From NCBI RefSeq assembly GCF_030845195.1, contig NZ_CP132543.1, positions 1,071,501-1,135,500 of the forward strand: a DNA stretch of 64,000 bases, written 5' to 3'. The notes under the pieces were generated by a model, which ran no database searches, was not told where the DNA came from, and was given only the letters and a program-made list of their open reading frames with translations. How positions within the stretch are numbered: the first letter of the stretch is position 1; the number at the start of each line of letters is the position of its first letter. Below are positions 8,296 to 60,812 of the stretch, in pieces. Source of the stretch: Sanyastnella coralliicola. GTDB lineage: Bacteria > Bacteroidota > Bacteroidia > Flavobacteriales_D > Sanyastnellaceae. Position numbers and translations under genes: made by a program.

Positions 8296-10143
8296 TCACT
8301 GCGGTTTTTTAACCAGTCGTTGCTGAGCTATTGACTGCTCTGCAGTGGAAACATCTAAGATGTAGCTTCCAGAGGCCATATTCGAGAAGTCAAGCTGCAA
8401 TTGATTGACACCTTCGGTCAAGTCATAACTGCCAAACCAAACTGGGCGACCATTCAAATCCATGAGTGAAATCAAGACTACTTGCTCGTATTTCATCTTG
8501 ATATCCATTCTGAACCGACCTTTTCCAGGGTTTGGATAGAGGGCCAGGATATCGGCATCAGCCTCATGCGTGAGGGCAATCATGGGTGAATATTCGTTTT
8601 CACCGTTGAAGTCGAATTGGTGTAGTCTATAATAAGCGGTTCCAAACGGACGTGTGCGATCGTTGTAGATGTAGCTGGTCTGCTCTTGAGTAGTTCCTTG
8701 ACCTAGTATTTCTCCGATGACTTCCCAGTTGAAGCCGTCGGTAGAACGTTCAATCTCGAAGTGTGAGTTATTTAGCTCTGTTGCTGTGGTCCAACGAAGT
8801 TCGTTTCGGTCTGGATAAACCGTACCGTCAAACTCAGTCAATTCAACAGGGAGGAAAGCGAATGAGCAATCCAGAGTTACTCCTGTCAGGTCCCAATCGA
8901 ATGAATAGGCTGTGTTATCCGCAGTATAGTTGTCGATGAGCATGACATAGTACATATTCAATTCGGTCTCAGCTACGGTAATGGCCTCAACCCATGCGTC
9001 ACCGCTTGGTGGTTCTGTGGTATCTCCTGCACCAATCACCAAACCTGTAGGCTCGTATAGAGCGGAATATGAACAACGGAGTGGAGCTTCTGAGGGTGGA
9101 CAAACGATTTCGTCAGCGGGGTAAGGCCCCCAGATGGCGAAGTCGTAGTCAATGCCTCCGGTTGGTACTAAGGTGAACTCAATGGTCCCAGAGGTAACCG
9201 GTGAAAAGACAAACCACTGCGATTGATGCTCATAGGTCAAACAATCGTTGTTCGTAGCATTGAGATCTTGGTAATCACCATAGTCATCTGCGTTTCCACC
9301 GAATGTTTCATCAGTACATATGGTTACGGAACCTCCACAATCTTGGTGAAGCGTTGAGAAGTAGGGTTCACAAGTCACTTCGAGTTCGAAGTCTCCGGTG
9401 GCCCCGCCATATCCTTGCACAAGAATAAAGTAGTCAACGCCTTCAAGTGTCGCGATGGATATTTGTGATTGGGTATCGCATGAATCATCATTCCCCATTT
9501 CACAGACTAAGTTGTCGCATTCATCACTGTACAGGTTGATCTTCGTGTCGTAGTCAGATTCACATAAACTGAAAGTGACAAAGTCGCCCGTACCTTCGAA
9601 GTAATACCAAAGTCCTGGTGCGCCGATGCTTGTCCAGCATCCGCTCACGTAATCCCAAGTGGCTGTATCAGTGTTTCCGTTCACAACGTCGCCACAAGCG
9701 ATGGTCTCTGCTCCTGAGCAATCATCGTTGGCTGGGGGAGGATCTCCCACGCCTTCCCATGTTACATATAGGTTGGCGCCACAACCATAATAGTCGTCAC
9801 AACCATATTCATCGATCAGTACCCAAATAGTGCCGTTGAGTGTTGAAGTCCATGACAGTTCTGATTGCCAGCTGCATGCGTCATCATTATAGTCAATGTA
9901 GTTACCGTCTTCATCGTAGAGGGTGATAACGGTATCCCAACTTCCACCACAAGTGCTGAAAGTGTAGGTCTCACCTGAGACAACATCTACGGTGTAGTAC
10001 TCACCACCCCATACACAGTAGGCAACAGATGTAGAGCCTGCTGAAGATGGAGTAGCATCAGCGTAATACACGTTGTCATTGTCACATTGAGCCCATGACC
10101 AAGATGCACAAAGAGATAATATGGCAATCAGCGCTGCTCTCAT
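8296..10143 (-). CDS. Secreted acidic multidomain protein with type A T9SS sorting domain
   Basis: 615 residues with a signal peptide ending SWAQC. Three or more pre-peptidase C-terminal-like domains are suggested by repeated patterns such as GETYTFSTCGGSWDTVITLYD (about 55-130), GLWYYFEGTGDFVTFSLCESDYDTKINLYS (about 170-255) and a third near 270-430 (WFVFSPVTSGTIEFTL). These beta-sandwich domains often sit on secreted enzymes, but no catalytic domain is seen. The C-terminus (ALYPNPGKGRFRMDI, then LMDLNGRPVWFG, ASGSYILDVS, QRLVKKP) is a typical T9SS type A domain. A WTTATELNNSHFEIERS segment before it is common in Bacteroidota surface proteins. The start overlaps the stop of the small exported gene upstream (ATGA), so the two are probably translationally coupled. 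Confidence 0.88.
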   Translation of the reverse strand: MRAALIAILSLCASWSWAQCDNDNVYYADATPSSAGSTSVAYCVWGGEYYTVDVVSGETYTFSTCGGSWDTVITLYDEDGNYIDYNDDACSWQSELSWTSTLNGTIWVLIDEYGCDDYYGCGANLYVTWEGVGDPPPANDDCSGAETIACGDVVNGNTDTATWDYVSGCWTSIGAPGLWYYFEGTGDFVTFSLCESDYDTKINLYSDECDNLVCEMGNDDSCDTQSQISIATLEGVDYFILVQGYGGATGDFELEVTCEPYFSTLHQDCGGSVTICTDETFGGNADDYGDYQDLNATNNDCLTYEHQSQWFVFSPVTSGTIEFTLVPTGGIDYDFAIWGPYPADEIVCPPSEAPLRCSYSALYEPTGLVIGAGDTTEPPSGDAWVEAITVAETELNMYYVMLIDNYTADNTAYSFDWDLTGVTLDCSFAFLPVELTEFDGTVYPDRNELRWTTATELNNSHFEIERSTDGFNWEVIGEILGQGTTQEQTSYIYNDRTRPFGTAYYRLHQFDFNGENEYSPMIALTHEADADILALYPNPGKGRFRMDIKMKYEQVVLISLMDLNGRPVWFGSYDLTEGVNQLQLDFSNMASGSYILDVSTAEQSIAQQRLVKKPQ

Positions 10144-10604
10144 TCAATAATGATCTCGTACGAGGCTGCCGCTCCGTTCAATTTGTCTTGGGGAATCGAT
10201 TCGTATTCTTTTTGGGTCATGAAAATGACCGGACCAGTGCCAGAACGAAGTTCAGGGTGTGCTGCAAGCCAACGTTCGCGAACTGATCTCAACGTGAAGT
10301 CTTTTGGGTATGGACTTCCATCAGGAAGCGGACCCGCCAAGGCAATGAACCATCCCTTCTTCTCTAGAGATCTGAGCATTTGTGTCATGTCCAAACCACC
10401 TTCAGAGGTGACGGAAATTTCTTTGCTTTTAGCAGTATAGTGACAAGTGAGTGTGCGCACGGTCATCGAGCGCATGTCGTCAAAAAGAACTTTGGCATTC
10501 GCCTCGCTAAAGGCGCCAACAGGACGTAGCAAGAAGTTAGCGCGGTCTTGTGCGTTCATGCACAACGCGCCACAAATAAGTAGGGTGGTTATAAGTGTTC
10601 GCAT
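10140..10604 (-). CDS. Small exported protein of unknown function
   Basis: 154 residues from ATG 10604; an alternative start 33 bp upstream would place extra residues before a clean signal peptide (MRTLITTLLICGALCMNAQ). The mature part is about 135 residues with no domain that I recognise. It has a basic middle and ends in ASYEIIIE. No lipobox and no sorting domain are seen, so it is probably periplasmic. Its stop overlaps the start of the downstream T9SS gene by 4 bp, so the two products may work together. Confidence 0.75.
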   Translation of the reverse strand: MRTLITTLLICGALCMNAQDRANFLLRPVGAFSEANAKVLFDDMRSMTVRTLTCHYTAKSKEISVTSEGGLDMTQMLRSLEKKGWFIALAGPLPDGSPYPKDFTLRSVRERWLAAHPELRSGTGPVIFMTQKEYESIPQDKLNGAAASYEIIIE

Positions 10605-17587: not shown

Positions 17588-17669
17588 TGTTTTCAAGCCT
17601 TGCGGATTTGCATTCTCTTACTGGGAGCGAGGGGGAAAGGTTACGTAGGAGGAATCGGATAATGGGATT

Positions 17670-17976
17670 GTGGACCGTGGACTGTGGACTGTGGACCGGA
17701 GGTGACTTGTGATGGAAGGTCTATGGAAAGTGGTACGAATACTCTACACTGGGTAGCACTGTTGAGGTCTAGTTAAATTTCAACGGACGCCGGATGCCGG
17801 ACGCCGGAATCCTGTAGACCGTGGACCGTGGACCGAAGGTGACCAGTGATTGAAAGTCTAGGGCATGTAGTACGAATATTCTACACTGGGTAGCACGATT
17901 GAAGTCTAATTCACTTATCTAACGGACGCCGGATGCCGGACGCCGGAAAATCACTCCACAGTCCACGGTCCACATC
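17670..17976. repeat. Heptad island 1 with a diverged ~120-bp direct repeat
   Basis: Lies in the 477-bp divergent space between the M43 protease and dnaE. It opens with four GTGGAC(C/T) heptads at 17670-17697. A unit running from a GTGGACC heptad through a unique stretch (TACGAATA, CTACACTGGGTAGCAC) to a CCGGACG-type heptad run is present twice, at 17691-17809 and 17828-17947, with many substitutions. A further CCACAGT/CCACGGT run (the opposite strand of GTGGAC) closes it at 17956-17976. No gene is seen here. Confidence 0.8.
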
Positions 17977-18014
17977 CAGTGGATAACATGTTCAAATCCT
18001 TTAACATTCTCGCC

Positions 18015-18064: not shown

Positions 18065-21000
18065 ATGATCCTCATTTTTGATACAGAGACCACGGGACTT
18101 CCGCGAGACTGGAAAGCTCCGATGTCAGATACTGACAACTGGCCACGGCTGGTGCAGTTGGCGTGGCAGCTCCATGAACCAAATGGTAAGCTGGTCTCTC
18201 GAGGGAATATCATTGTTCGCCCTGACGGATTCACGATTCCGTTCAACGCGGCGAAAGTACACGGAATCACCACCGAGCGTGCTGAGCGTGACGGGGAGGA
18301 GCTAACTTCTGTACTTGATGCCTTCCAAGAAGATTTGGCCAAGGCGAAGTACATCGTCGGTCACAATGTGGAGTTCGATATCAACATCGTTGGGTGTGAG
18401 TTGATCCGTGTTGGTCGTCCACCAGAGTTGTTGACGGAAAAGATCGACATTGATTCGAAGGATGAGGCTACTGAGTTCTGTGCGATTCCTGGAGGACGAG
18501 GAGGGAAGTTCAAATGGCCTACACTGACCGAACTGCACCAGAAACTCTTCGGGGTTGGATTCGACGACGCCCACGATGCGGCGTATGATGTGGATGCCAC
18601 TTCTCGTTGTTTCTTCGGGCTAATCACGCACAAAGTGGTGACGCTGGAAGAGATTCCGGATATTTCTCAAGTCAAGTACGAAGCACCCAAGTTAGAGGCG
18701 GCGAATTTTGAAGCGGATAAGCAGGCTACTGATCTCGGTAATGTCGCTAACGCGGAAATCGATCAAGCGCTTGCGGATGAGCCATTCGTGCATTTACATT
18801 GTCACTCCCAGTTCTCCATTCTTCAGGCGGTATCAGACATTAAAAATTTGGTTGCCACAGCGAAAAAAATGGAAATGCCAGCCATTGCCATTAGTGATCA
18901 TGGAAACATGATGGCTGCTTTCACCTTTGTACGCGAAGCGTTGGCCGCCGATATCACGCCCATCGTTGGATGTGAATTCAACCTCTGTCGCAATCGCACG
19001 GATAGAAGTCAAAAAGACGACGGCTATCAAACGGTGGTTTTGGCAAAGAACAAAGCAGGATACCATAACCTGGCGAAGCTCGCCTCCATGGCATACACCG
19101 ATGGATTCTACTACGTGCCTCGAATCGACAAAGAGGCATTACTAGAGTTCAAAGGAGATCTCATTGTGACCACAGGAGGATTGTGGTCTGAGGTTCCTTA
19201 CTTGATTCTGAACGTTGGAGAACAACAGGCAGAAGAGGCTTTCGTCTGGTACAAAGAGCATTTTGGCGACGATTTCTATGCAGAGCTGAACCGCCACGGA
19301 CTGGAAGAAGAGCAAGCAGTGAATGATGTGTTGCTGCGATTCTGCAAGAAGCATGATGTCAAGTACTTCGCTGCCAACAACAGCTACTACACTCGAAAAG
19401 AACAGGCTGAAGCGCACGATATCCTTCTCTGTGTGAAGGATGCTGAAAGCGTAAACAAGCCAAAGAAATATATCGGGAAACGCGGACGAGAGTTCCGTTT
19501 TGGATTCCCGAACGACGAATTCTATGTGAAGTCGCCACAGGAGATGAAGCAGCTATTTGCTGATCTTCCTGAGTCGATCAAAACGACCAATGAAATCGCT
19601 AACAAAATTGAGCGATACGAGTTGGCGCGCGACGTACTTCTTCCAGCCTTCGACATCCCAGAAGAGTTTGTGGATGCGAAAGACGAAGAAGATGGAGGTA
19701 AACGTGGTGAGAACAATTTCCTGCGTCACCTGACCTACGAAGGTGCGAGGAAACGCTACGATGAAATTACTCCAGAAATCGAGGAGCGCTTGGATTTCGA
19801 GTTGGCTACCATTGCCAACACCGGATACCCTGGGTATTTCTTGATTGTACAGGATTTCACCACCAAGGCACGTGAAATGGGGGTGTCGGTAGGACCTGGA
19901 CGTGGATCCGCAGCCGGTTCCGCGGTAGCGTATTGCGTAGGAATCACCAACGTCGACCCTATCAAATACGATCTTCTTTTTGAGCGCTTCCTGAACCCTG
20001 ATCGTGTATCGATGCCTGATATCGATATCGACTTCGACGACGAAGGACGTCAGAAAGTAATTGACTACGTAATCGAGAAGTACGGTGCAAATCAAGTAGC
20101 GCAAATCATCACCTATGGTACCATGGCGGCGAAGTCATCTGTACGTGATACAGCGCGTGTACTTGAATTGCCATTGCCAGATGCGGATCGTCTAGCCAAA
20201 CTCATCCCAGATATCAAGCTGGGGAAACTCTTCAAGCTGGAAGGGAAGGAGCTTAGCGATAAGCTAAAAGGGAATAAAGAGGAAGTAGACAAAGCCAAGA
20301 TGTTCAAAGAATTGGCGAATGGAAATGACCTCGAAGCACGCACGATCAATACCGCGCGTGTTCTAGAAGGAACGGTGCGAAACACCGGAATTCACGCCTG
20401 TGGGGTAATCATCACCCCAGACGATATTTCCAACTTCGTTCCGATTGCCACGGCTAAAGATTCAGCCATGGCCTGTACGCAGTTCGACAACGCCGTTGCA
20501 GAAGACGCCGGTCTATTGAAGATGGACTTCCTCGGACTGAAGACCTTGACGCTGATCAAGGATGCGGTAAAGAACGTGAAGGAGCGCCACGGTGTTGATT
20601 TGGATCCAGACAGCTTCCCATTGGATGACGTTCCGACCTATGAACTCTTCCAGCGTGGTGAAACCGTAGGTATCTTCCAGTACGAATCTGCCGGGATGCA
20701 GAAGTACATGAAAGAGCTGAAGCCGACGGTCTTCGCCGATCTCATCGCCATGAACGCCCTGTATCGTCCAGGACCGTTGGAGTACATTCCTTCGTTCATT
20801 CGACGTAAGCACGGTCAAGAGGAAATTACTTACGACCTCGAAGACATGCGCGAGTACCTGGAAGAGACCTACGGAATTACGGTCTATCAGGAGCAGGTGA
20901 TGTTGCTCTCGCAGAGCTTGGCAGGATTTACAAAAGGTGAAGCCGATACCCTGCGTAAAGCGATGGGTAAGAAGAAGTTGGATCTTCTTGCGAAGCTGAA

Positions 21001-22333
21001 GCCGAAGTTCCTTGACCAAGGAAATGAACGCGGGCACGATCGCGAGATTCTTGAGAAAGTATGGAAAGACTGGGAGGCCTTCGCGAGTTACGCCTTCAAC
21101 AAGTCGCACTCTACATGTTACGCTTGGGTAGCTTATCAAACGGCTTACCTGAAAGCCAACTACCCAGAAGAGTACATGGCTTCTGTGCTTTCGAATAACA
21201 TGAATGATATTAAGTCGGTGACCTTCTTCATGGAGGAATGCCGACGTATGGGAATTCCTGTACTAGGTCCAGATGTCAATGAATCAGCCTACAAGTTCCG
21301 CGTGAACGACGAAGGAGCGATTCGTTTCGGACTTGGCGCTATGCGCGGAGTAGGAGGTGGAGCGGTGAACAGCATCGTTGAAAACCGCCAGGAGTCGCGC
21401 TACACCAGCATCTTTGATTTCTCATGCAAGATCAACTTGAAAGACTGCAATAAGCGTGTGTTCGAAAGCCTCGCCCTCGGTGGAGCTTTCGACAGCTTTG
21501 ATGATGGGAAGCGTTCACAGTACTTCGCTCCAGATGAGAAGGGAAGAACAGTGATTGAAAACGCCATCCGTTATGGAAACGCGATGCAGGAGGCAGAGAA
21601 CTCTTCGCAGACAAGTCTCTTTGGAGAATCAGCTGATGTAGAGATTCCAGAACCACGCATTCCGGAAGCTGAAGAGTGGATGGTCTTGGATAAGTTGAAC
21701 AAGGAGAAAGAAGTCGTAGGAATCTACATTTCCGGACATCCTTTGGATGACTTCCGAGTGGAAATGGAACACTTTTGTACTTCAGGTGGGATGAAGGTCT
21801 TGCTAGACATTGACAGCCATAAAGGCAGAGAACTGTCATTCGGTGGCATGGTCACGGCAGTAGAGCATCGCACGGCCAAGAATGGTAAGCCTTATGGGAA
21901 TTTCACCATTGAAGATTACGAGCACTCAGAGCGCTTCTTCCTCTTTGGTGATGACTACATCCGATTCCGCGAGTACTTGGTTGAACATTGGTTCTTGTAC
22001 TTGAAAGGAACGGTTCGCGAGAAGCCATTTAGAGATACCGGGGAGCTGGAGTACAAGATCTCCCATGTTGAGCTATTGGCAGACGTTCGCGAACGAATGA
22101 ACAGCGAGTTGAAGGTAACTGTTGACCTTGCTCAGCTCGATGACCGATTAGTAACCGATATTGCATCATTGGTTGAGAAATACCCGGGTAACGTTCCGGT
22201 AACCATGGAGATTCGTGACATTAACGCAGCGATTACCATGCCTGCGAAACGCGCTCGAGTGGAACTCGCCAGTGAATTAGTAGATGAATTAGGAAGGATG
22301 GATGCCATCCGATACCAAATATTAACGAAGTAA
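18065..22333 (+). CDS. dnaE: DNA polymerase III alpha subunit with N-terminal DnaQ-like exonuclease domain
   Basis: 1422 residues. Residues 1-190 are a DEDD exonuclease: DTETTG at 6-11, HNVEFDINI near 100 and a HDAAYDV motif near 175. After a linker comes the PHP domain (from about 240, FVHLHCHSQFS), then the C-family polymerase core with GPGRGSAAGSAVAYC and catalytic Asp652/Asp654 in MPDIDIDF. The fingers, tandem HhH region and an OB domain (FGGMVTAVEHRTAKNGKPY near 1260) follow. It is the replicative polymerase; the fused exonuclease should supply proofreading in cis, unlike E. coli where epsilon is separate. It is not PolC, because the exonuclease is not embedded within a PHP domain and the domain order is exo-PHP-pol. 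Monocistronic with its own promoter. Codons 228-231 carry a variant of the iterated motif (18745-18757). Confidence 0.95.
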   Translation: MILIFDTETTGLPRDWKAPMSDTDNWPRLVQLAWQLHEPNGKLVSRGNIIVRPDGFTIPFNAAKVHGITTERAERDGEELTSVLDAFQEDLAKAKYIVGHNVEFDINIVGCELIRVGRPPELLTEKIDIDSKDEATEFCAIPGGRGGKFKWPTLTELHQKLFGVGFDDAHDAAYDVDATSRCFFGLITHKVVTLEEIPDISQVKYEAPKLEAANFEADKQATDLGNVANAEIDQALADEPFVHLHCHSQFSILQAVSDIKNLVATAKKMEMPAIAISDHGNMMAAFTFVREALAADITPIVGCEFNLCRNRTDRSQKDDGYQTVVLAKNKAGYHNLAKLASMAYTDGFYYVPRIDKEALLEFKGDLIVTTGGLWSEVPYLILNVGEQQAEEAFVWYKEHFGDDFYAELNRHGLEEEQAVNDVLLRFCKKHDVKYFAANNSYYTRKEQAEAHDILLCVKDAESVNKPKKYIGKRGREFRFGFPNDEFYVKSPQEMKQLFADLPESIKTTNEIANKIERYELARDVLLPAFDIPEEFVDAKDEEDGGKRGENNFLRHLTYEGARKRYDEITPEIEERLDFELATIANTGYPGYFLIVQDFTTKAREMGVSVGPGRGSAAGSAVAYCVGITNVDPIKYDLLFERFLNPDRVSMPDIDIDFDDEGRQKVIDYVIEKYGANQVAQIITYGTMAAKSSVRDTARVLELPLPDADRLAKLIPDIKLGKLFKLEGKELSDKLKGNKEEVDKAKMFKELANGNDLEARTINTARVLEGTVRNTGIHACGVIITPDDISNFVPIATAKDSAMACTQFDNAVAEDAGLLKMDFLGLKTLTLIKDAVKNVKERHGVDLDPDSFPLDDVPTYELFQRGETVGIFQYESAGMQKYMKELKPTVFADLIAMNALYRPGPLEYIPSFIRRKHGQEEITYDLEDMREYLEETYGITVYQEQVMLLSQSLAGFTKGEADTLRKAMGKKKLDLLAKLKPKFLDQGNERGHDREILEKVWKDWEAFASYAFNKSHSTCYAWVAYQTAYLKANYPEEYMASVLSNNMNDIKSVTFFMEECRRMGIPVLGPDVNESAYKFRVNDEGAIRFGLGAMRGVGGGAVNSIVENRQESRYTSIFDFSCKINLKDCNKRVFESLALGGAFDSFDDGKRSQYFAPDEKGRTVIENAIRYGNAMQEAENSSQTSLFGESADVEIPEPRIPEAEEWMVLDKLNKEKEVVGIYISGHPLDDFRVEMEHFCTSGGMKVLLDIDSHKGRELSFGGMVTAVEHRTAKNGKPYGNFTIEDYEHSERFFLFGDDYIRFREYLVEHWFLYLKGTVREKPFRDTGELEYKISHVELLADVRERMNSELKVTVDLAQLDDRLVTDIASLVEKYPGNVPVTMEIRDINAAITMPAKRARVELASELVDELGRMDAIRYQILTK

Positions 22334-24176: not shown

Positions 24177-24183
24177 GTGCAAT

Positions 24184-24414
24184 GTGGAACGCGGAACGCA
24201 GATTGCAGATCGCGGTAGAAAAAGCAACGGATGCCGGACGCCGGATGCCGGAATTGGTAAGCTGTATGCGGTAGGCAGTATGCGGCATACAGAACGCAGA
24301 CCTCGGTGTTATGGGCAACGGATGCCGGACGCCGGACGCCGGGAATAGTAAGCAGTATGCGGTAGGCGGTATGCCGTTCTTTTCGAACCACGAACCACGA
24401 ACCACGAACCAATC
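24184..24414. repeat. Heptad island 2
   Basis: From GTGGAAC at 24184 the sequence can be cut into consecutive 7-mers with profile GCNGNAN (GCGGAAC, GCAGATT, GCCGGAC, GCTGTAT, GCAGTAT). At least 22 are in one register, until a single inserted G near 24343. The end is a different heptad, AACCACG three times (about 24385-24408). It directly follows the tRNA terminator. Confidence 0.9.
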
Positions 24415-24435
24415 TTCTAGGTGATTCAACTACAA

Positions 24436-26093: not shown

Positions 26094-26125
26094 TTAGGAA
26101 ACCGGGGGCTCTTTTTTTGTGCAAT
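26065..26125 (+). repeat. Duplicated tRNA-Asp 3' end plus terminator
   Basis: From 26065 the sequence repeats the tRNA-Asp 3' end (TCCAGACC G), its trailer, the terminator hairpin and the T-run found from 24124. It has a handful of changes and continues into heptad island 3, itself a copy of island 2. The two copies are 1941 bp apart in direct orientation and bracket the propeller gene. No integrase or transposase lies between them. Confidence 0.85.
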
Positions 26126-26345
26126 GTGGTACGCGGAACGCAGATTGCAGATCGCGGTAGAAAAAGCAACGGATGCCGGACGCCGGAATTGGTAAGCTGT
26201 ATGCAGTAGGCAGTATGCGGCATACAGATCGCAGAACGCAGATCCCGGTAGTACAGGCAACGGACGCCGGACGCCGGACGCCGGAAAAAAAACACCCCCC
26301 TCTACAGAGCCCCCTCCGTCCACAGTCCACAGTCCACCGTCTACC
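26126..26345. repeat. Heptad island 3
   Basis: 23 heptads in unbroken register from 26126 to 26286 (GTGGTAC, GCGGAAC, GCAGATT, GCAGATC, GCGGTAG and so on to GCCGGAA). After an A/C-rich break, a CCGTCCA/CAGTCCA run occupies 26316-26343. The first 85 bp repeat island 2 almost exactly. Confidence 0.9.
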
Positions 26346-26488
26346 GGTAAAGTCGTATCTTTAAACTACACCAAACCAAACACTAACGTCAGATTCAACT
26401 ACCGCTCCTTTCCGTAGCGACGATGTCGTTACCCGTCTTGCTGGTTCTTGGGAGGTGATGGTAGAGAGGATTGAACTAACCTGATCGT

Positions 26489-28402
26489 ATGCGCTACTTA
26501 TTGACTGGCCTGTTGCTCGCTGCCCTTGCTATCCCTGCTTCTTCGCAAGGGGAGAAGAAGGTGCTGATTATTGGAATTGATGGAACAAGATCCGACGCGC
26601 TTCAAGCGGCGAATACCCCAAACATTGACGGACTTATCGCGAACGGATTTTATAGTCCGGATGCATTGAGCAATGACATTACCATTAGCGGACCAGCTTG
26701 GTCTTCCATCCTCACAGGAGTCTGGTCTGATAAGCACTTGGTGACGGGGAACGGATTCTCGCAAGACGACTTTGATACCTACCCAACGCTCTTCACACAT
26801 CTAGAGAATCTGGATCCATCAATTCATACGGCTTCTATCTGTCATTGGTCACCGATCAACAACAATATCATTCAGGGAGCGACTGACTTCAGCTTGAACG
26901 TCTCATCTGATGCTGAGTTGAGTGCACAGACGGTGAATTACCTGTCGACACAGGATCCTGATTGTATGTTTATCCACTTCGATGAGGTTGATGGTGCAGG
27001 ACATGGAAATGGATTTGCTACGGATGTACCGCAGTATATTGCCGCGATCGAGAATGTTGACCAACTCATAGGACCAATCCTCGAAGCGATCGAACAGCGA
27101 CCTAACTATGCCAATGAAGATTGGTTGTACCTCTTGACTACTGATCACGGAGGTTTCGGAACCTCGCACGGTGGGACTACCATCGACGAACAACGTGTTT
27201 TCTTCATTGCCAGTGGAAACAGCGTCCCAAACGAACTACTCGAAGCGCCCACTACAACCATCGATAATGGGGCAGATAATTGCCTCGGCGAGAACATTCC
27301 ACAGCTTGATTTTGATGGAAGCAATGACCGTGTGGAAATCGCTCCAAATGCACTTTTCGACTTCGGAGCCTCTCAAGACTTTACCATCGAATGCCGTGTA
27401 CGTACGCAACAGGCAGCCGATGTGGCGATTGTTGGAAATAAGGATTGGGATTCAGGATTCCTTCCAGGGTTCGTCTTCTCATTTGTACTTCCAAACGGAC
27501 CAGGGTGGAAGGTCAACATTGGAGACGGTTCAAGTCGAGTAGACTTGAATACCGGTGGCGCTATCGCAGACAATGAGTGGCACACGCTGAGTGTTTCTTT
27601 CGATCGCGACGGAATGATGCGGATGTACGAAGACGGCATATTCGTCGCAGAAGACGACATCAGCGGCATCGGGAATATCAATACTGGCGCTGGTTTAGTC
27701 TTCGGAACCGACATTGACCAAGGCTATGACTTCACAGGGTCCATCGCAGAAGTCCGAGTATGGAATTCAGTAGTTGGAGCTCAGGAGATTCAAGACTGGA
27801 ACTGTTCGTCGCTAGACAATACCCACCCAGACTACAGCAGCTTAATTGGCTACTGGAAACTCGATGAAGGAAACGATGCGGTTATCGTGAACGACTCCTC
27901 TCCAAACAACAATCAAGGAAACATCATCGGCGCAGGTTGGGATGAAAACGACGTCATCACGGTAGTTGACTACTCAGGAACTCCACGCATCGCCGATATC
28001 CCATCAACAGCCATGACTCACCTCTGTGTGGAGATTGATCCCCTCTGGGATCTTGACGGAATCAGCTGGGTAGCTCCATGTCAACTCGCTGGTTGCCAGG
28101 GAGATTTGAATGGAGACGGCATGGTGAATATTGCCGATCTTCTCGTCTTCCTCGAACAATTCGGTTGCCAAGAAAACTGCGGCAACGCCGATTTCGATAA
28201 CGATGGAACAGTCGACGCCGATGATATGCTGGTCTTCCTAGCCAACTTCGGTATCCCATGTGACGCCGGCATTCAAGAAGTAGAGTTCGAGGTGAATCGC
28301 CCAGCTTTCCCTCAACAACACAAGGTGGCCTACTTCGGTCAACTCTGCGGCACCACCGGACATGTTTGTAAGCATGGTGGGCAAAGTAAGAACGAAGACT
28401 AA
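26489..28402 (+). CDS. Secreted alkaline phosphatase-superfamily protein with LamG and dockerin-like domains
   Basis: 637 residues; signal peptide ends ASSQ. Residues about 22-260 are a type I phosphodiesterase/nucleotide pyrophosphatase-like domain of the alkaline phosphatase superfamily: metal and nucleophile region GIDGTRSDAL, SGPAWSSILTG, FDEVDGAGHG, LTTDHGGFGTSHGG. Residues about 275-465 are a LamG/concanavalin-like domain (FDGSNDRVEIAP, FTIECRVRT, IGYWKLDEGN). A calcium-binding dockerin-like pair follows at about 545-605 (GDLNGDGMVNIADLLVFLEQFG, then DFDNDGTVDADDMLVFLANFG). The last 35 residues look unrelated to any sorting domain and may result from a frameshift or deletion (see findings). 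Substrate is unknown. Confidence 0.87.
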   Translation: MRYLLTGLLLAALAIPASSQGEKKVLIIGIDGTRSDALQAANTPNIDGLIANGFYSPDALSNDITISGPAWSSILTGVWSDKHLVTGNGFSQDDFDTYPTLFTHLENLDPSIHTASICHWSPINNNIIQGATDFSLNVSSDAELSAQTVNYLSTQDPDCMFIHFDEVDGAGHGNGFATDVPQYIAAIENVDQLIGPILEAIEQRPNYANEDWLYLLTTDHGGFGTSHGGTTIDEQRVFFIASGNSVPNELLEAPTTTIDNGADNCLGENIPQLDFDGSNDRVEIAPNALFDFGASQDFTIECRVRTQQAADVAIVGNKDWDSGFLPGFVFSFVLPNGPGWKVNIGDGSSRVDLNTGGAIADNEWHTLSVSFDRDGMMRMYEDGIFVAEDDISGIGNINTGAGLVFGTDIDQGYDFTGSIAEVRVWNSVVGAQEIQDWNCSSLDNTHPDYSSLIGYWKLDEGNDAVIVNDSSPNNNQGNIIGAGWDENDVITVVDYSGTPRIADIPSTAMTHLCVEIDPLWDLDGISWVAPCQLAGCQGDLNGDGMVNIADLLVFLEQFGCQENCGNADFDNDGTVDADDMLVFLANFGIPCDAGIQEVEFEVNRPAFPQQHKVAYFGQLCGTTGHVCKHGGQSKNED

Positions 28403-28416
28403 GCTGTTGTTGGGTT

Positions 28417-29067
28417 GCGGAACGCGGAACGCAGATCGCGGTTGAATAATGAACGGACGCCGGATGCCGGACGCCGGAATTGGTAAGCTGTATGCGGTAG
28501 GCAGTATGCAGAAAGCGGAACGCAGAACGCAGATCGCGGTGGAATAAGCAACGGATGCCGGACGCCGGACGCCGGAATTGGTAAGTTGTATGCGGTATGC
28601 AGTATGCGGAATGTGGAACGCGGAACGCAGATCGCAGATCGCGGTGGAATAAGTAACGGATGCCGGAATTGGTAAGTTGTATGCGGTATGCAGTATGCGG
28701 AATGTGGAACGCGGAACGCAGATCGCAGATCGCGGTGGAATAAGTAACGGATGCCGGATGCCGGACGCCGGAATTGGTAAGCTGTATGCGGTAGGCAGTA
28801 TGCAGAAAGCGGAACGCAGATCGCAGATCGCGGTGGAATAAGTAACGGATGCCGGACGCCGGAATTGGTAAGCTGTATGCGGTAGGCAGCATGCAGAAAG
28901 CGGAACGCAGATTGCAGATCGCGGTGGAATAAGTAACGGATGCCGGACGCCGGACGCCGGAATTGGTAAGCTGTATGCGGTAGGCAGTATGCGGAATTTG
29001 GAACGCGGAACGCGGAACGCAGATCGCGGTGGAATAAGCAACGGACGCCGGATGCCGGACGCCGGAA
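28417..29067. repeat. Heptad island 4: 93 heptads in one register
   Basis: Starting 14 bp after the phosphatase stop, 651 bp divide exactly into 7-mers of profile GCNGNAN, with interspersed TTGGTAA, AATAAGT and AACGGAT heptads. The landmark GAATTGGTAAG occurs at 28477, 28575, 28666, 28771, 28862 and 28960; the spacings 98, 91, 105, 91 and 98 are all multiples of 7. Long open frames cross this block in several frames, but their proteins merely repeat every seven residues. No gene is present between 28403 and 29368. Confidence 0.95.
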
Positions 29068-29113: not shown

Positions 29114-29247
29114 GGTTCTTGGTATTTGGTTCTTAGTGATTTCCGGTGTCCGGCATCCGGCGTCCGTTAGGTTGGTGTTAGAAATAAGGCCCTAGTCTCT
29201 AGTCTCTAGTCCCTGGTCTCTAGTCTCTCGACTCTCGTCCCTTGTCC
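29114..29247. repeat. Heptad island 5: two further heptad families
   Basis: 29114-29169 reads as eight heptads changing from GGTTCTT-type to TCCGGCA-type without a phase break. 29192-29247 is a run of eight CTAGTCT-type heptads (CTAGTCC, CTGGTCT, CTCGACT, CTTGTCC). The 120 bp that follow before the START-domain gene show no feature I can name. Confidence 0.85.
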
Positions 29248-29368
29248 ACAACGTTTCGTATCTTCCGGCTGGCCAAGCTGCTGGCCCCTAACACCAAACA
29301 CTGCTTGTGGCCGATTCAAATCTTGGTTTGGACCAATTCTTGAATAGTCTACAACAAACAACTACTCG

Positions 29369-30056: not shown

Positions 30057-30326
30057 AACGTGAAATGTGATTCTTGAATCTTCATTGTGAACACAGCGTT
30101 TCATTTTGTCATTGTGAACAGAGAAGTTCGAAATGCGATTGTGAACACAGCGTTTCATTTTGTCATTGTGAACAGAGAAGTTTGAAATGCAATTGTGAAC
30201 ACAGCGTTTCATTTTGTCATTGTGAACAGAGAAGTTCGAAATGCAATTGTGAACACAGCATTTCATGTTGTCATTGTGAAATGCAATTCCCTAAAATCGA
30301 TTGTGAACAGAGAACGATGCTCGTTT
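30057..30326. repeat. 27-bp tandem repeat block (10 units, alternating A and B types)
   Basis: ATTGTGAA(C) recurs exactly every 27 bp at 30084, 30111, 30138, 30165, 30192, 30219, 30246, 30273 and 30300, with a degenerate unit at 30057. Two tail types alternate (one ending near CATTTTGTC, the other near GAAATGCG), giving a 54-bp higher-order unit. It resembles the 'CHCEERS' class of intergenic repeats found in many bacteria, which translate into spurious Cys-rich peptides. 27 is not a multiple of 7, so this block is distinct from the heptad islands. Confidence 0.9.
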
Positions 30327-36848: not shown

Positions 36849-36884
36849 AAAAATGCCGCTGAATTTTCAGTGGCATTTTTTTTT
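36849..36884 (+). terminator. Rho-independent terminator
   Basis: A 14-bp stem with one G-T pair (left arm AAAATGCCGCTGAA) and a run of nine T residues. The T-run merges directly into heptad island 7. Confidence 0.9.
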
Positions 36885-36983
36885 GGTTTTTGGTTTTTGG
36901 TTCTTGGGTATGGAGTTCGGGGAAGCTTTAATTTCCGTCCACCGTCCACCGTCCACCGTCCACCGTAGACCGCAAACCGAGCA
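36880..36983. repeat. Heptad island 7
   Basis: TTTTTGG heptads (36880-36907) grow out of the terminator T-tract. A second array of CCGTCCA x4, CCGTAGA, CCGCAAA and CCGAGCA occupies 36935-36983. Confidence 0.85.
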
Positions 36984-36989
36984 TTAAAT

Positions 36990-37059
36990 GGTGCATGAAT
37001 GCACCGCTAAAGGACTTTGATGTGGACTTTTTGGTCCATTAGCGGCGCATTGATGCGCC
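36990..37059. repeat. Compact three-hairpin element
   Basis: Two near-identical perfect hairpins, GGTGCAT-GA-ATGCACC (36990-37005) and GGCGCAT-TG-ATGCGCC (37044-37059), flank a central arm closed by GCTAA (37006-37010) and TTAGC (37039-37043) with an inner GGAC/GTCC stem. Seventy bases would fold into a symmetric three-armed structure. It is seen once in this window, so a mobile REP-like origin is a suggestion only. Confidence 0.6.
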
Positions 37060-38486: not shown

Positions 38487-39446
38487 ATGAGAAAGAGCAG
38501 AGCCTACTGGCTGCTGCTCTTTTCTTTTTTTCTCGCCTTTCAGGCGGAAGCATCTACGACGCCATTCATTCTCGAAAACGACACCATTATTCTCGGCGGC
38601 AAAACACTGATCGTAGAAAGGGAAGTGGTGTATGACAGCTCATCAACCTCCAGCAATCAACTCGAACCCGAAGAAAAAGAACGACCACGTTTGAAATTAG
38701 GGACGTGGAGAATCGGATTCGATGTTTCAGGTTACGCTCCCATCGATGGGATGAAATCAAAAGTGGATGGTTACAGCAGCCTCAATGCTTTTGTTGGTCC
38801 AGACCTAAGAAGAGGAAGCGGAATGGGAATAGGCGGACATATAGAACGTGCCGTAGGAAGAGATGGATTCCTGGTCCACACTGGATTAGCCATCGATTTT
38901 GTCAATGGTTTCAATTATACCCTAGATCAAACCCAACTCGATGACAGCCTGTTATCGTTTGCCTCTTTTGATAAGAATACCTTAGATCAAATCCTCCTCT
39001 TCCGTTACGACATCGGTTCGGAGACAGACACGATCGAAATGACACTCAGTCAAGAGGCAATCCAAACTTCATGGTTACGATTACCAGTAGGATTAGTCTA
39101 CGAAAGAGAGATAAACCGAGAGTTCACCCTTCGCGCAGGCATCTTCGCTGACGTTCGAATGTTCCTGACGGGAAAGTCTCCAGACATCTACCTGTTACCA
39201 GATCGTGGAAGCGAACCGATTCTGTACCAGACAAGTGAGTTGGAAAAAGGCGATATCTACAACCGATTCTCCATCACCCCACGCTTCAGCATCGGCGGAC
39301 GATTCAAAATGGATCGAAGATGGTGGTTCCTAGCCACCCTCAATGGCGGTTTCCCTTTCAACCCAATGAAAGAGAATGAGTTCGTTGAGTACAGAAGTAT
39401 TCTCACGCACGTCAACCTAGGAGTACAATACCATTTCGGCCGCTAA
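38487..39446 (+). CDS. Exported protein, probable outer-membrane beta-barrel
   Basis: 319 residues from ATG 38487, which gives a clean signal peptide (WLLLFSFFLAFQAEA); ATG 38463 is possible. After a charged linker, the protein has alternating hydrophobic beta-strands ending in aromatic residues (WRIGFDVSGYAPI, LVHTGLAIDFVNGFNYTL, LRLPVGLVYEREI, FTLRAGIFADVRMFL, NLGVQYHFGR) and a C-terminal Phe-Gly-Arg, as in outer-membrane barrels (PorT/OprF-like). It is the third gene of the sigma operon and a likely regulon target. A long-form motif relative (TCGCC-TTTCA-GGCGGAA) overlaps the signal-peptide codons. Confidence 0.75.
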   Translation: MRKSRAYWLLLFSFFLAFQAEASTTPFILENDTIILGGKTLIVEREVVYDSSSTSSNQLEPEEKERPRLKLGTWRIGFDVSGYAPIDGMKSKVDGYSSLNAFVGPDLRRGSGMGIGGHIERAVGRDGFLVHTGLAIDFVNGFNYTLDQTQLDDSLLSFASFDKNTLDQILLFRYDIGSETDTIEMTLSQEAIQTSWLRLPVGLVYEREINREFTLRAGIFADVRMFLTGKSPDIYLLPDRGSEPILYQTSELEKGDIYNRFSITPRFSIGGRFKMDRRWWFLATLNGGFPFNPMKENEFVEYRSILTHVNLGVQYHFGR

Positions 39447-39450
39447 CGCG

Positions 39451-39499
39451 GTAGACCGTGGACCGTGGACCGTAGACCGCGTTCCGCAATCCGCGTTCC
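39451..39499. repeat. Heptad island 8: GTGGACC heptads switching to GCGTTCC
   Basis: Seven heptads in one register, GTAGACC, GTGGACC twice, GTAGACC, GCGTTCC, GCAATCC, GCGTTCC, beginning 4 bp after the stop. The family changes half-way with no shift of phase. The stop codon lies within a CCGCTAACGCGG palindrome related to the iterated motif. Confidence 0.85.
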
Positions 39500-39524
39500 T
39501 CTATGACGCAAAGCGGAATAGAAA

Positions 39525-42602: not shown

Positions 42603-43025
42603 ATGGCTCATCACTTAGAGAACGCGAAAGACGCAGCAGGAAACAATGCCTCACCGGTACTTCCTGATGAAGTAAAGAACTTCCTTATCGACATCGACGG
42701 AACTATTACTGAAGACGTCCCAAACGAAGAGCCAGAGCGCATGGCCACCTGTGAACCCTTCCCAGATGCATTGGAAATCATGGAGAAGTGGTACGAAGAA
42801 GGACACATCATCACCTTCTTCACGTCGCGCACAGAAGCTCATCGTGAGGTAACTGAAGTGTGGCTAAAGAAGCACAACATCCGCTACCACGCACTACTCA
42901 TGGGCAAACCACGCGGAGGCAATTACCACTGGATTGATAACCACATCGTTCGCGCAACACGTTTCGAAGGTAAGTTCACCGATTTGGTGACGGAGACACG
43001 TGAGATTGAGGTGTTTAAGAAGTAG
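42603..43025 (+). CDS. HAD-superfamily phosphatase-like protein
   Basis: 140 residues without signal peptide. The HAD nucleophile motif DIDGTITED is at about residue 31, motif II is TFFTSRTEAH near 77, a conserved Lys-Pro-Arg-Gly-Gly follows (LLMGKPRGGNYHWIDNH near 100), and an Asp in HWIDNH may serve as the last acidic motif. It lacks a cap domain, so it may act on a large substrate. Homologues in Bacteroidota are often labelled phosphoheptose isomerase, which the sequence does not support. Not clearly in an operon. Confidence 0.8.
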   Translation: MAHHLENAKDAAGNNASPVLPDEVKNFLIDIDGTITEDVPNEEPERMATCEPFPDALEIMEKWYEEGHIITFFTSRTEAHREVTEVWLKKHNIRYHALLMGKPRGGNYHWIDNHIVRATRFEGKFTDLVTETREIEVFKK

Positions 43026-43030
43026 TCATT

Positions 43031-43164
43031 CGGCGTCCGGCGTCCGGCATCCGGCGTCCGTGCTTGTATTAGTTCTTGGTCTTTAGTCCTTAGTCCTTAG
43101 TCTTTAGTCCTTAGTATTTAGACTCTAGTCCCTAGACTCTTGACTCTAGACTCTAGACCCTCGT
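43031..43164. repeat. Heptad island 9, running into the ruvX stop
   Basis: Four CGGCGTC heptads (43031-43058) are followed after 15 bp by thirteen heptads of the CTTAGTC/CTCTAGA class (43074-43164). The second array covers the last codons and TAG of ruvX (stop at 43153-43155). Confidence 0.9.
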
Positions 43165-43563
43165 CTCCAAATACCTTTGGAGGATTACTGCGGCGGAGAC
43201 CATATCCAAATTCTTCTTGTTTCGGCGATTCTTCTTTCGCATTCCGCCAGCGACCATGGCTTGCATGGCATCACGACTGCTGTATGATTCATCAACGCGG
43301 TGCAGGGGAATGGCTGGATATTTCTTGGCTAGGTCTTTACAGAATTGATCGATAATGGCCGAGCTATCTGTGGCTTCACCGAACATGGACGGGTCGCCTA
43401 CGACAAAGTCAGAGATCTTTTCAGAGTTCATTAGACGTTGAATGTGATCCCAAATGTCTTTGGTGTCAATGCCTTCAAGCGGACTAGCGATTATCTGAAG
43501 TTCATCAGTAATAGCTAAGCCGGTACGCTTTCCGCCGTAGTCAAATGCAAGGATTTTACCCAT
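43153..43563 (-). CDS. ruvX: Holliday-junction-resolvase-like RNase YqgF/RuvX
   Basis: 136 residues, normal length for the family. The RNase H-like fold shows FDYGGKRTGLAITDE at the start with the first catalytic Asp, the second acidic position in VDESYSS near 90, and DMVSAAVILQRYL near the end with a third Asp. In bacteria YqgF takes part in pre-16S rRNA 5' end maturation. Its last four codons and stop lie within the heptad array, so the C-terminal sequence may vary between strains. A TACCTTTG box sits 4 bp upstream of the ATG. The gene follows pbpC by 15 bp on the same strand. Confidence 0.92.
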   Translation of the reverse strand: MGKILAFDYGGKRTGLAITDELQIIASPLEGIDTKDIWDHIQRLMNSEKISDFVVGDPSMFGEATDSSAIIDQFCKDLAKKYPAIPLHRVDESYSSRDAMQAMVAGGMRKKNRRNKKNLDMVSAAVILQRYLETRV

Positions 43564-46080: not shown

Positions 46081-47751
46081 ATGAAAAGTATCATTTCCTC
46101 AATCCTCGTATGTATGACTGTGGTGGCCTTTGGACAACAACCGCCAAGTTTCTTCCATACTTACCTCGATGAAGCTCCAACTGTTGACTTCGCTCCATTC
46201 CACTTTGATCAGCTGATGCAAGAAGCAAACCGCTATGAAGAAGAGGAAGGGCGCACTATGCAAGGCCAGCTTCGCTATGATGATTTTGATTTCTTTTCGT
46301 TGGCTGATCACACTGAACTCAACGACGGGACTTCCATCTGGCGATTGAATTTCCATAGTGATGCGGCGCAAGCGATCTGTGTTTACTTTGATCAATTCCA
46401 CCTACCGGTGGGAAGTAAACTATACATCTACGATGCTGATAAGCAATACTTTGAAGGTCCAATTGGTCACGAAGAAAACAACGACCACGGTAGATTTATG
46501 ACCAACGATATTTGGGGTGAAAACATCGTGGTAGAATACGTTCAAACAGCGGAAGTGATCGGAACACCTTCGTTAAACGTAATGGCCATCGGATACATCT
46601 TCAGATACGCTTACCCGCCAGCAGAATTGAACGGACAACGCGGAGGCTCGCAGCCTTGTGAAGTCGATGTGAATTGTCCTGAGATCGACGGTTGGGAAGA
46701 ACAGCGTGATGCAGTTGTTCGTCTTCGTATTACAGATAGCGGACAACAATTCCTGTGTTCAGGAGCGATGGTCAACAATACAACCCTTGATTGTAAGCAA
46801 TACTTATTGAGCGCTTTGCACTGTGCTGACGGTGTTTCAGATGATGATTTTGCATTCCTTCAGGTGCGATTCAACTATGAGCGTCCATCTGACGACCCAT
46901 GTGGTACAGGGGGCTTTTCAAGCTCAAGAAACCGAACCGGTGTATTCCATGTGGCGGATAGCAATGACAATGGTGCTGGAGGCTTCGAAGGATCAGATTT
47001 CTTGTTGTTGGAAGTAGAAGACGATATCCCAGATGCATGGAACCCGTACTTCGCAGGTTGGGATGCTTCAGGATCTGGATCTGGTAGCGGGGTAGGCATT
47101 CACCACCCAGCTGGAGACATCAAGAAAGTATCAACTTACACGTCAAACCTTCAAAGCGTTTGGCTAGGAGCTCCAGGTAGCCACTGGCAAGTGGTTTGGA
47201 CACAAACAGAAACTGACCACGGTGTGACAGAAGGTGGTTCCTCAGGATCACCAATCTTCAATAACGATGGTTTGATCGTTGGAACACTCAGCGCCGGACT
47301 TTCGGCATGCACCAATGGTGGGGCAGGAGCCGGAACTGGTCCAAACGAGCCTGATTACTACGGTAAGATGAGCTACCACTGGGATTTCAATCCGAATTCA
47401 GACGATCAGAAACTCCACCTTTTCCTCGAGCCCTTTGGTGTGGGGATTAAGGAGTGTCCTGGAACTTACCGTCCGTGTGCAAACGCATTCGTGAATGTGA
47501 CAGAAGCGACTTCTGATCAGTACCTCAACATTTCTCCGAATCCTACCACAGGAGAAATCTTCGTTCGCGTAAGCGAATTGATGGTAAAGCAAATCCAAGT
47601 ATTCGACATGAACGGACGTGTGGTATTCACGCAACAGGCGCAAGGTCCAGTAAACCAACTGGATCTCTCCGACCTTCCAGCTGGAAGCTACGTGCTCGTT
47701 GTAGACACCCAAGCCGGAGATTCATTCAACCAACGCGTAGTGAAGTTGTAG
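46081..47751 (+). CDS. Secreted trypsin-like serine protease with type A T9SS sorting domain
   Basis: 556 residues; signal peptide ends VAFGQQ. After a pro-region with a jelly-roll pattern (SIWRLNFHSDAAQAICVYFDQFHLPVGSKLYIYD), the chymotrypsin/lysyl endopeptidase-like domain spans about residues 200-450. His lies in LLSALHCADG, Asp in GSDFLLLEV and Ser in GGSSGSPIFNNDG. Many cysteines pair within the domain. The final 80 residues are a type A sorting domain (ISPNPTTGEIFVRV, VFDMNGRVVFTQ, LPAGSYVLVV, QRVVKL). It is probably a surface or released protease. The G of its TAG stop is the first base of heptad island 10. Confidence 0.92.
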   Translation: MKSIISSILVCMTVVAFGQQPPSFFHTYLDEAPTVDFAPFHFDQLMQEANRYEEEEGRTMQGQLRYDDFDFFSLADHTELNDGTSIWRLNFHSDAAQAICVYFDQFHLPVGSKLYIYDADKQYFEGPIGHEENNDHGRFMTNDIWGENIVVEYVQTAEVIGTPSLNVMAIGYIFRYAYPPAELNGQRGGSQPCEVDVNCPEIDGWEEQRDAVVRLRITDSGQQFLCSGAMVNNTTLDCKQYLLSALHCADGVSDDDFAFLQVRFNYERPSDDPCGTGGFSSSRNRTGVFHVADSNDNGAGGFEGSDFLLLEVEDDIPDAWNPYFAGWDASGSGSGSGVGIHHPAGDIKKVSTYTSNLQSVWLGAPGSHWQVVWTQTETDHGVTEGGSSGSPIFNNDGLIVGTLSAGLSACTNGGAGAGTGPNEPDYYGKMSYHWDFNPNSDDQKLHLFLEPFGVGIKECPGTYRPCANAFVNVTEATSDQYLNISPNPTTGEIFVRVSELMVKQIQVFDMNGRVVFTQQAQGPVNQLDLSDLPAGSYVLVVDTQAGDSFNQRVVKL

Positions 47752-47827
47752 GAACGCGGAGCGCGGATTGCGGAATGCAGAACGCGGAATGCAGAACGCG
47801 GTCCACAGTCCATGGTCCACGGTCTAC
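47751..47827. repeat. Heptad island 10: eleven heptads, two families in one register
   Basis: Consecutive heptads from 47751: GGAACGC, GGAGCGC, GGATTGC, GGAATGC, AGAACGC, GGAATGC, AGAACGC, then GGTCCAC, AGTCCAT, GGTCCAC, GGTCTAC. The family changes between heptads 7 and 8 without an indel, and the array begins within the upstream stop codon. Confidence 0.9.
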
Positions 47828-47903
47828 GAAAAGACGTGCAACCTTTTGACTCCTACCCTCGACTGTTAAATAGTACCTGCGCACGTGCGCGTATAAAATG
47901 GTG

Positions 47904-59626: not shown

Positions 59627-59634
59627 CAAAGCTA
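59627..59634 (-). promoter_or_regulatory. Promoter -7 box (TAGCTTTG) for the miaA operon
   Basis: Exact TAnnTTTG match on the minus strand, 26 bp before ATG 59600 and immediately next to heptad island 11, which occupies the region where upstream promoter elements would lie. Confidence 0.6.
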
Positions 59635-59646
59635 CGTATTTATGGC

Positions 59647-59765
59647 GTGGAACGTGGATCGTGGAATGTGGAATGTGGAATGCGGATTTCGGATCGCGGA
59701 TTGCGGAATGCGGATTGCGGATCGCGGAATGTGGATTGTGGTTTTTTAGGTCTTTGGTTTTCGGA
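59647..59765. repeat. Heptad island 11: 14 contiguous NYGGANN heptads plus three T/G-rich ones
   Basis: Heptads GTGGAAC, GTGGATC, GTGGAAT x3, GCGGATT, TCGGATC, GCGGATT, GCGGAAT and on to GTGGATT lie in a single register from 59647 to 59737. TTTAGGT, CTTTGGT and TTTCGGA continue to 59765 and encode the last residues of the small membrane protein. Confidence 0.95.
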
Positions 59766-59991
59766 GGAGGATGAAGATGAGGGCAAGAGGGATGAAATAC
59801 ACCAACGCAAAGGAGAGGTATTTCAGAAGAATGAGTCCGAGGAGGATGAATGCGATGAGGCCTATCCAATTGATGATGCCTTTTTTTACACCTCCCTTGT
59901 TCCTAGCATCCCTGATGTAGAGAAACAGATACATGAAGGTGAAGCCAAAGGCTAGAATATACAGTAGAAGAAATGCAAGGAATACGTACAT
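59746..59991 (-). CDS. Small two- or three-helix membrane protein
   Basis: 81 residues, mostly hydrophobic. Segments at about 2-25 and 42-75 (a helix pair) are separated by a basic loop RDARNKGGVKKG. Its C-terminal Arg-Lys-Pro-Lys-Thr and stop are coded by heptads of island 11. No family is recognised. It lies 24 bp downstream of the barrel gene on the same strand. Coding status is likely but not certain because of its small size. Confidence 0.6.
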   Translation of the reverse strand: MYVFLAFLLLYILAFGFTFMYLFLYIRDARNKGGVKKGIINWIGLIAFILLGLILLKYLSFALVYFIPLALIFILLRKPKT

Positions 59992-60612: not shown

Positions 60613-60663
60613 AGGACAAGAAATTAGGTTGACGTAAATATACGGAATCTGAACGAGACGCTT

Positions 60664-60763
60664 CTCGGGTCGAGGGTCGAGGGACTCTAATCCATAATCT
60701 ATAATCGATAAACTATAACGGTGTCGCACTAACGCCTATAGCCTAACGCCTAACGCCTATTGA
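60664..60763. repeat. Heptad island 12: two A/T-rich and CTAACGC arrays
   Basis: Array 1 (60664-60719) has eight heptads changing from CTCGGGT and CGAGGGT to CTCTAAT, CCATAAT, CTATAAT, CGATAAA and CTATAAC. Array 2 (60729-60763) has CTAACGC, CTATAGC, CTAACGC twice and CTATTGA, offset by 2 bp. The G/C content changes strongly while the 7-bp period holds. Confidence 0.88.
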
Positions 60764-60812
60764 AAAACAAAGCATTTTGCCATTTCGCCGTTAGCCCTTT
60801 AGCCGACGGAGC

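Follow-up and report, generated by a model that had tools for sequence, protein, structure and literature searches.

Short tandemly repeated heptanucleotides (STRRs) are scattered through the genomes of heterocystous cyanobacteria, much as heptads are in the genome described here, although by description the heptads themselves differ. STRR fingerprinting is mentioned in PMC5088731. As cited in two later papers (PMC4679880, PMC4692102), the survey of Mrázek et al. (2007) found heptads to be the most abundant class of long repeat in most genomes, with a sporadic distribution, and proposed slippage tied to a 7-nt polymerase contact. Two sub-kinds are closest to the present case. TAACTGA arrays occupy intergenic DNA in Beggiatoaceae, Cyanobacteria and five Bacteroidetes; those of Microcystis, Gramella, Aequorivita and Elizabethkingia also contain further heptamers, and Cyanothece strains are reported to differ by ‘7 nt increment’ indels. 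The system uses one heptad, which in Beggiatoaceae mostly stands immediately ahead of start codons in a single orientation (PMC4679880). The first-pass annotation of the DNA studied here knew of no counterpart described for Bacteroidota, but these reports of TAACTGA and mixed heptamer arrays provide one. The GGGAATC and GGGGA(C/T)T arrays of Xanthomonas and Nostoc are, like those described here, intergenic heptads at conserved sites, varying in length and sequence between related species; they form one G-tract family, G-quadruplex-capable and with four units preferred (PMC4692102).

The arrays described below are members of the known heptanucleotide class, since every class-defining feature that was tested was found: tandem 7-nt units beyond chance, a mainly intergenic position and change of copy number by whole units. 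They fall outside both sub-kinds. TAACTGA is absent among the array families counted, and where that system has one heptad, upstream of start codons, there are several families here, on both strands and in every gene orientation. Unlike the Xanthomonas and Nostoc arrays they comprise dozens of families, with up to 93 units, mostly two-G or one-G; the commonest have two-G tracts rather than the three or more Gs of a GGGANTN or GGGGAYT unit. Compared with the heptanucleotide repeats of the 2007 survey, as far as the citing papers portray them, the present arrays are degenerate, with many families together in about 17% of intergenic DNA, and the sizes of indels between species have been measured directly. 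What is new is this unit-quantised change between species, the co-existence of many families, a sister species that uses octads and a polarity like that in Xanthomonas and Nostoc.

The window, a 64-kb stretch of DNA (64,000 nucleotides), lies within one 4.10-Mb contig of the marine flavobacterium Sanyastnella coralliicola (G000), of whose genome about 21% was sampled, with genes called mechanically as long ORFs; comparison was made with a sister species (G001) and a third member of the same genus (G002). At 28417–29067, with its G-rich strand on the plus strand, is an island of 651 bp that divides into exactly 93 heptads in a single register. Splitting into heptads and lag autocorrelation both bear out the first-pass description on this point: identity is 0.63 at lag 7, 0.50 at lag 14, 0.44 at lag 21 and 0.42 at lag 28, against 0.17–0.31 at those lags up to 44 that 7 does not divide. 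The landmark heptad TTGGTAA starts at 28480, 28578, 28669, 28774, 28865 and 28963, so that successive copies are exactly 14, 13, 15, 13 and 14 heptads apart (98, 91, 105, 91 and 98 bp). The island is thus built of higher-order repeats of about 13–15 heptads (period 98, 6.7 copies by TRF). Five are complete from TTGGTAA to TTGGTAA (28480–28962, plus strand), and in the heptad list their lengths vary by whole heptads only, through the number of GCGGAAC/GCAGATC and GCCGGAT/C (GCCGGAY) units. Island-style heptads resume on the opposite strand at about 29150–29258. A short GGACGCC/GGATGCC-type block at approximately 29150–29166 on the minus strand forms an inverted pair with the CGGATGCCGGACGCC units of the island, contig positions 1100641–1100668 matching the island in reverse orientation. 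A CTAGTCT-type array follows on the minus strand at 29192–29258 (period 7, 6.9 copies; the plus strand is the C-rich one), and its ortholog in G001 is shorter. The gene directly upstream of the island (26489–28402), predicted to encode a phosphodiesterase with laminin-G-like and dockerin-like domains, has its stop codon 14 bp ahead of the array.

Across the window, among lags 2–30, stretches reaching 60% identity occur at 7, 14, 21 and 28 only, plus 27, and locally shuffled control sequence gives 0 bp at lag 7. The lag-27 signal comes from a separate tandem array of period 27/54 bp at 30082–30280 (TCATTGTGAACACAGCGTTTCATTTTG...), unrelated to the heptads and shorter and diverged in G001. Besides the island there are ten more 7-periodic stretches. 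Two on the plus strand carry the island's own higher-order unit: that at 24181–24416 is 82% identical to the island and ends in a C-rich CGAACCA block, and that at 26117–26354, where the unit spans about 26117–26287, is 86% identical and ends in a C-rich CCGTCCA block. Several others are successions of blocks: in a region between divergent genes, GGACCGT/GGACTGT and CGGACGC followed by a C-rich block (17643–17979), GGTTTTT then CCGTCCA (36860–37001), GGACCGT then CCGCGTT/CCGCAAT (39437–39513), and GGAACGC then C-rich GGTCCAC (47739–47836). Elsewhere, GTCCGGC, TTAGTCC and TAGACTC blocks lie between convergent genes (43025–43181), a plus-strand GGAATGT/GGATTGC array grades into GGTTTTT/GGTCTTT units (59629–59769), and GGGTCGA, TAATCTA and CTAACGC blocks adjoin at 60654–60771.

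Heptanucleotide arrays like the island number in the hundreds between the genes of this genome. In the contiguous 384 kb around the window, lag-7 windows cover 7081 of 40,828 intergenic bp, and 51 of 180 intergenic regions (about 28%) carry heptad arrays; lags of 2–30 that are not multiples of 7 account for 0–281 intergenic bp each, apart from lag 27 (641 bp). The intergenic lag spectrum, the check suggested in the first-pass annotation, is therefore dominated by 7 and its multiples in this sample; a spectrum lacking the peak at 7 outside the window, which the annotation had named as a refutation, is not what was observed. The arrays are restricted to intergenic DNA, with only 191 bp of coding DNA at lag 7 in about 342 kb, and in 864 kb, where 179 arrays were called, locally shuffled sequence gives no lag-7 bases. 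Arrays occur in every gene orientation, more frequently in convergent (25 of 51) than in divergent (21 of 85) regions, and between genes on the same strand they lie a median of 60 bp past stop codons. Dozens of families coexist (GGACGCC, GGATCGC, GGTTCGT, GGAACGC, GGACGGT, GGACCGT, GGCGTTA, GGTTGAC, GATTATC and others), and the first five of these, the most frequent, all contain a two-G tract. On the G-rich strand the units share a loose template, approximately RGWNNGY, which carries 3.56 bits per heptad where position-permuted controls carry 2.5; units that diverge from one another through point mutation would be expected to look like this. The idea that arrays are kept in one register, correct for the island, needs qualifying for the rest of the genome, where breaks exist but are rare: a test that recovers only about 40% of planted indels called 16 among 1954 heptads, and several of these fall where blocks meet. 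With so few breaks, 93 clean heptads are unexceptional.

The comparison with G001, in which aligned blocks are mostly 90–94% identical, covered 168 orthologous intergenic regions; the island itself falls outside it, as its counterpart sits at a run of N marking an assembly gap. At 41 orthologous sites, an array is present in both species at 35, in G000 only at five and in G001 only at one. Among indels of at least 4 bp with clean flanks, 22 of 28 within arrays are multiples of 7, compared with 3 of 19 outside (Fisher p=2.7e-5). Those within arrays measure 7, 14, 21, 28, 42 and 77 bp, and indels of 7n occur at about 5.4 per aligned kb in arrays against about 0.08 outside. The array at 47739–47836, for example, is 28 bp (4 heptads) shorter in G001, and that at 43025–43181 shows clean 7- and 28-bp indels internally and a 6-bp indel at its edge; several of the other array indels that are not multiples of 7 are likewise at array edges. 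Without the flank filter, multiples of 7 make up 21 of 45 indels of at least 5 bp in shared arrays and 17 of 119 outside, the latter equal to the one in seven expected by chance. Renewal in 7-bp steps, which the first-pass annotation had offered as one of two possibilities to be checked against related strains, is borne out by these figures, and indels of arbitrary size inside arrays, the refuting outcome it had named for this comparison, are not the pattern obtained. The annotation's view that gain and loss occur only in sevens describes most clean array indels of at least 4 bp but not the 1-bp indels, which arise at about the same rate in arrays (4 per 4105 aligned bp) as outside (32 per 38,903). 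Arrays have 16.3% substitutions and the remaining aligned DNA 5.8%, a difference that owes something to alignment ambiguity. At some sites the family itself has been exchanged: the GGACCGT/CCGCGTT array at 39437–39513 corresponds to GTATGCG ... GCCTACC in G001, and more orthologous sites behave likewise. The arrays are consequently not old, as had been assumed, but young and fast-turning, renewed by whole units before 1-bp indels pile up; with turnover this quick and 1-bp indels at the background rate, 651 bp without a break can be accounted for in the ordinary way.

We think it probable that whole units are duplicated and deleted by slippage or unequal recombination, and that this process, together with point mutation, both creates the arrays and renews them. 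Similarity between heptads falls with their separation, from 0.60 for neighbours through 0.54, 0.47, 0.42 and 0.38 to 0.36 at six units, whereas shuffled order gives a flat 0.40. This decay is the signature of neighbour duplication, and amplification is seen at several scales, from 14-bp dimers to the higher-order units of about 91–105 bp. Changes of a few units would come from replication slippage, the higher-order units from unequal recombination or from slippage between longer repeats, and diversity from ordinary point mutation, with duplication passing mutations on to neighbouring units and so creating runs and sub-families. In a 7-periodic array, nearby homology would be available only at shifts of 7n, so that each misalignment would gain or lose 7n bp and the register could be kept with nothing reading it; single-base indels would arise, but turnover would leave most arrays clean. 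The step itself is presumably polymerase slippage or unequal recombination, with 7 favoured by polymerase geometry and by mismatch repair that clears small loops only. Such repair generally handles loops of a few nucleotides well and longer ones badly, and would curb slippage of 1–4 nt while leaving that of 7 nt; each of the three genus members has a full-length MutS. Window positions 18065–22333 encode the replicative DNA polymerase III alpha, whose PHP and polymerase domains are preceded by an exonuclease (RNase_T) domain at the N-terminus; it is possibly relevant as the proposed agent of slippage. There are points against this scheme. Slippage alone leaves the strong preference for 7 (8 in G002) over 5, 6, 9 or 10 unexplained, mismatch repair would not by itself account for 7 as opposed to 9 or 10, plain slippage predicts neither the shared RGWNNGY template nor the order of G and C blocks, and the replacement of families at some orthologous sites needs recombination too. 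Judged from sequence, none of the findings would require a host function for the arrays.

The arrays have a polarity, scored by G content. Followed along its G-rich strand, an array tends to have the nearest gene on its 5′ side, with outward to inward counts of 195:104 in G000 (78:31 within 60 bp) and, more weakly, 78:52 in G001 (45:22 within 60 bp). A general skew close to start codons, shown to a smaller degree by array-free regions too (74:51), accounts for some of it, and the two species are not independent. Of the cases in which both polarities occur, 61 of 79 in G000 (61:18) and 27 of 35 in G001 (27:8) have the G-strand block first and the C-strand block second. The GGGAATC and GGGGAYT repeats of Xanthomonas and Nostoc likewise have the nearest ORF on the 5′ side of the G-rich strand (PMC4692102). 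Our guess is that the outward orientation of G reflects position-dependent tolerance, G-rich sense sequence being avoided just upstream of genes, or transcription-linked formation.

Paired G-then-C blocks could fold into hairpins acting as transcription terminators, insulators or protectors of mRNA 3′ ends, and the 61:18 block order, the inverted copies of one family that make up some pairs (S2 336159; the island and its partner at about 29150–29166) and the greater frequency of arrays in convergent regions are all in keeping with such a role. We nevertheless regard it as unlikely, and reject it as a general rule. Folding z-scores are no better in arrays than in array-free regions on average (means of −1.32 and −1.42, medians of −0.5 and −1.0), although values below −3 occur in 11 of 45 array regions and 6 of 45 array-free ones. 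Many arrays have a single polarity or pair different families, and divergent regions have arrays too. Nor would hairpins explain the block order, because C-then-G would fold equally well and the arrays do not fold more strongly on average.

That a protein or RNA reads the arrays at 7-bp spacing, with selection holding the register, was the other possibility raised at the outset; examples would be a nucleoid protein that binds the repeats or a regulator acting after transcription, such as has been proposed for TAACTGA. The conservation of most sites between species (35 of 41), the loose shared template and the polarity relative to genes would suit such a reader. We hold it to be distinctly unlikely, however, since array sequence diverges about three times faster than other aligned DNA, some orthologous sites have exchanged one entire family for another, heptads grow less alike with distance in the way that duplication predicts, octads dominate in G002 of the same genus, and families ranging from GGACGCC to GATTATC share little that could be read.

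Unit length is indeed not fixed within the genus. In the intergenic sample of G002, 1834 of 27,563 bp fall at lag 8 and 542 at lag 7, octad content being about three times that of heptads. Its octad arrays, which are abundant and intergenic (L172:4962–5561 and 9863–10495; L176:13291–13606), include units such as GGTCCATA and GTTTCCCG/GGGAAACC, and 7- and 8-bp units are mixed within an array. In G000 octads are few, of the GGCGAAAT/GGCTAAAT type (C1, about 883,658 and 2,703,981), some of them near heptad arrays. Other genera and families carry heptads of their own, including TGACTAG, GGAATTT and GATAATG. A GGTTCGT array matches many phyla in a collection of 85,000 genomes, but a universal heptad is rejected, as a shuffled one is as common or commoner in Bacteroidota: (GTTGCTG)3 occurs in 7 of 296 genomes and (GGTTCGT)3 in 2 of 296. 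Unit identity is therefore a property of the lineage.

It is conceivable, though very unlikely in our estimation, that unrelated phyla have in common a unit-writing activity, its unit length set by the lineage (mostly 7, but 8 in G002), that adds short units in the direction away from gene ends; if true, this would explain the unit length, the G-outward polarity shared with Xanthomonas and Nostoc and the replacement of families at the same site. The writing of 7–8-nt units near gene ends might fall to a dedicated enzyme or mobile element, through telomerase-like or reverse-transcriptase-templated addition or a REP/RAYT-like transposase. The preference for a unit length, its variation between species of one genus, the outward polarity and the switching of families speak for a writer of this kind, which we consider highly improbable all the same: Y1 transposases are single-copy, the one in G001 lying amid its own non-heptad repeats; reverse-transcriptase matches number one in G000 and none in array-rich G001, so a reverse-transcriptase origin is rejected; arrays found in one species only show no clean insertion with target duplication; and neighbouring heptads share variants, which implies copying from neighbours. 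The G001 transposase, a RAYT-like Y1 enzyme, is carried together with its flanking repeats (ATGCCGTAGGCATTCAA, CAACCCCTCTGGGGTAGAA) by an insertion of about 1 kb (L051:12330–13350, orthologous to about 54980 in the window and absent there). The arrays do not resemble REP/REPIN elements with a RAYT, as the repeats flanking this gene contain no heptads and G000 has a weak Y1 match only.

Three further candidates are dismissed: an assembly artefact because a sister MAG and other genera carry arrays independently, a protein-coding role because 7-bp gain or loss would shift the frame of the antisense ORFs of 267–340 aa that span the array and so break a protein, and a structured RNA family because Rfam gave no match at gathering score and only sub-threshold eukaryotic ones (MIR810, 31.4 bits against a gathering score of 170). 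The presence of arrays in about 28% of intergenic regions argues against a phase-variable contingency locus.

In conclusion, the dominance of heptads among bacterial tandem repeats is a question that has stood since the 2007 survey, and this genus offers a natural experiment for it—two close, heptad-rich species that differ by unit-sized indels and a third that uses octads. The polarity relative to genes that is common across phyla provides a second testable regularity.
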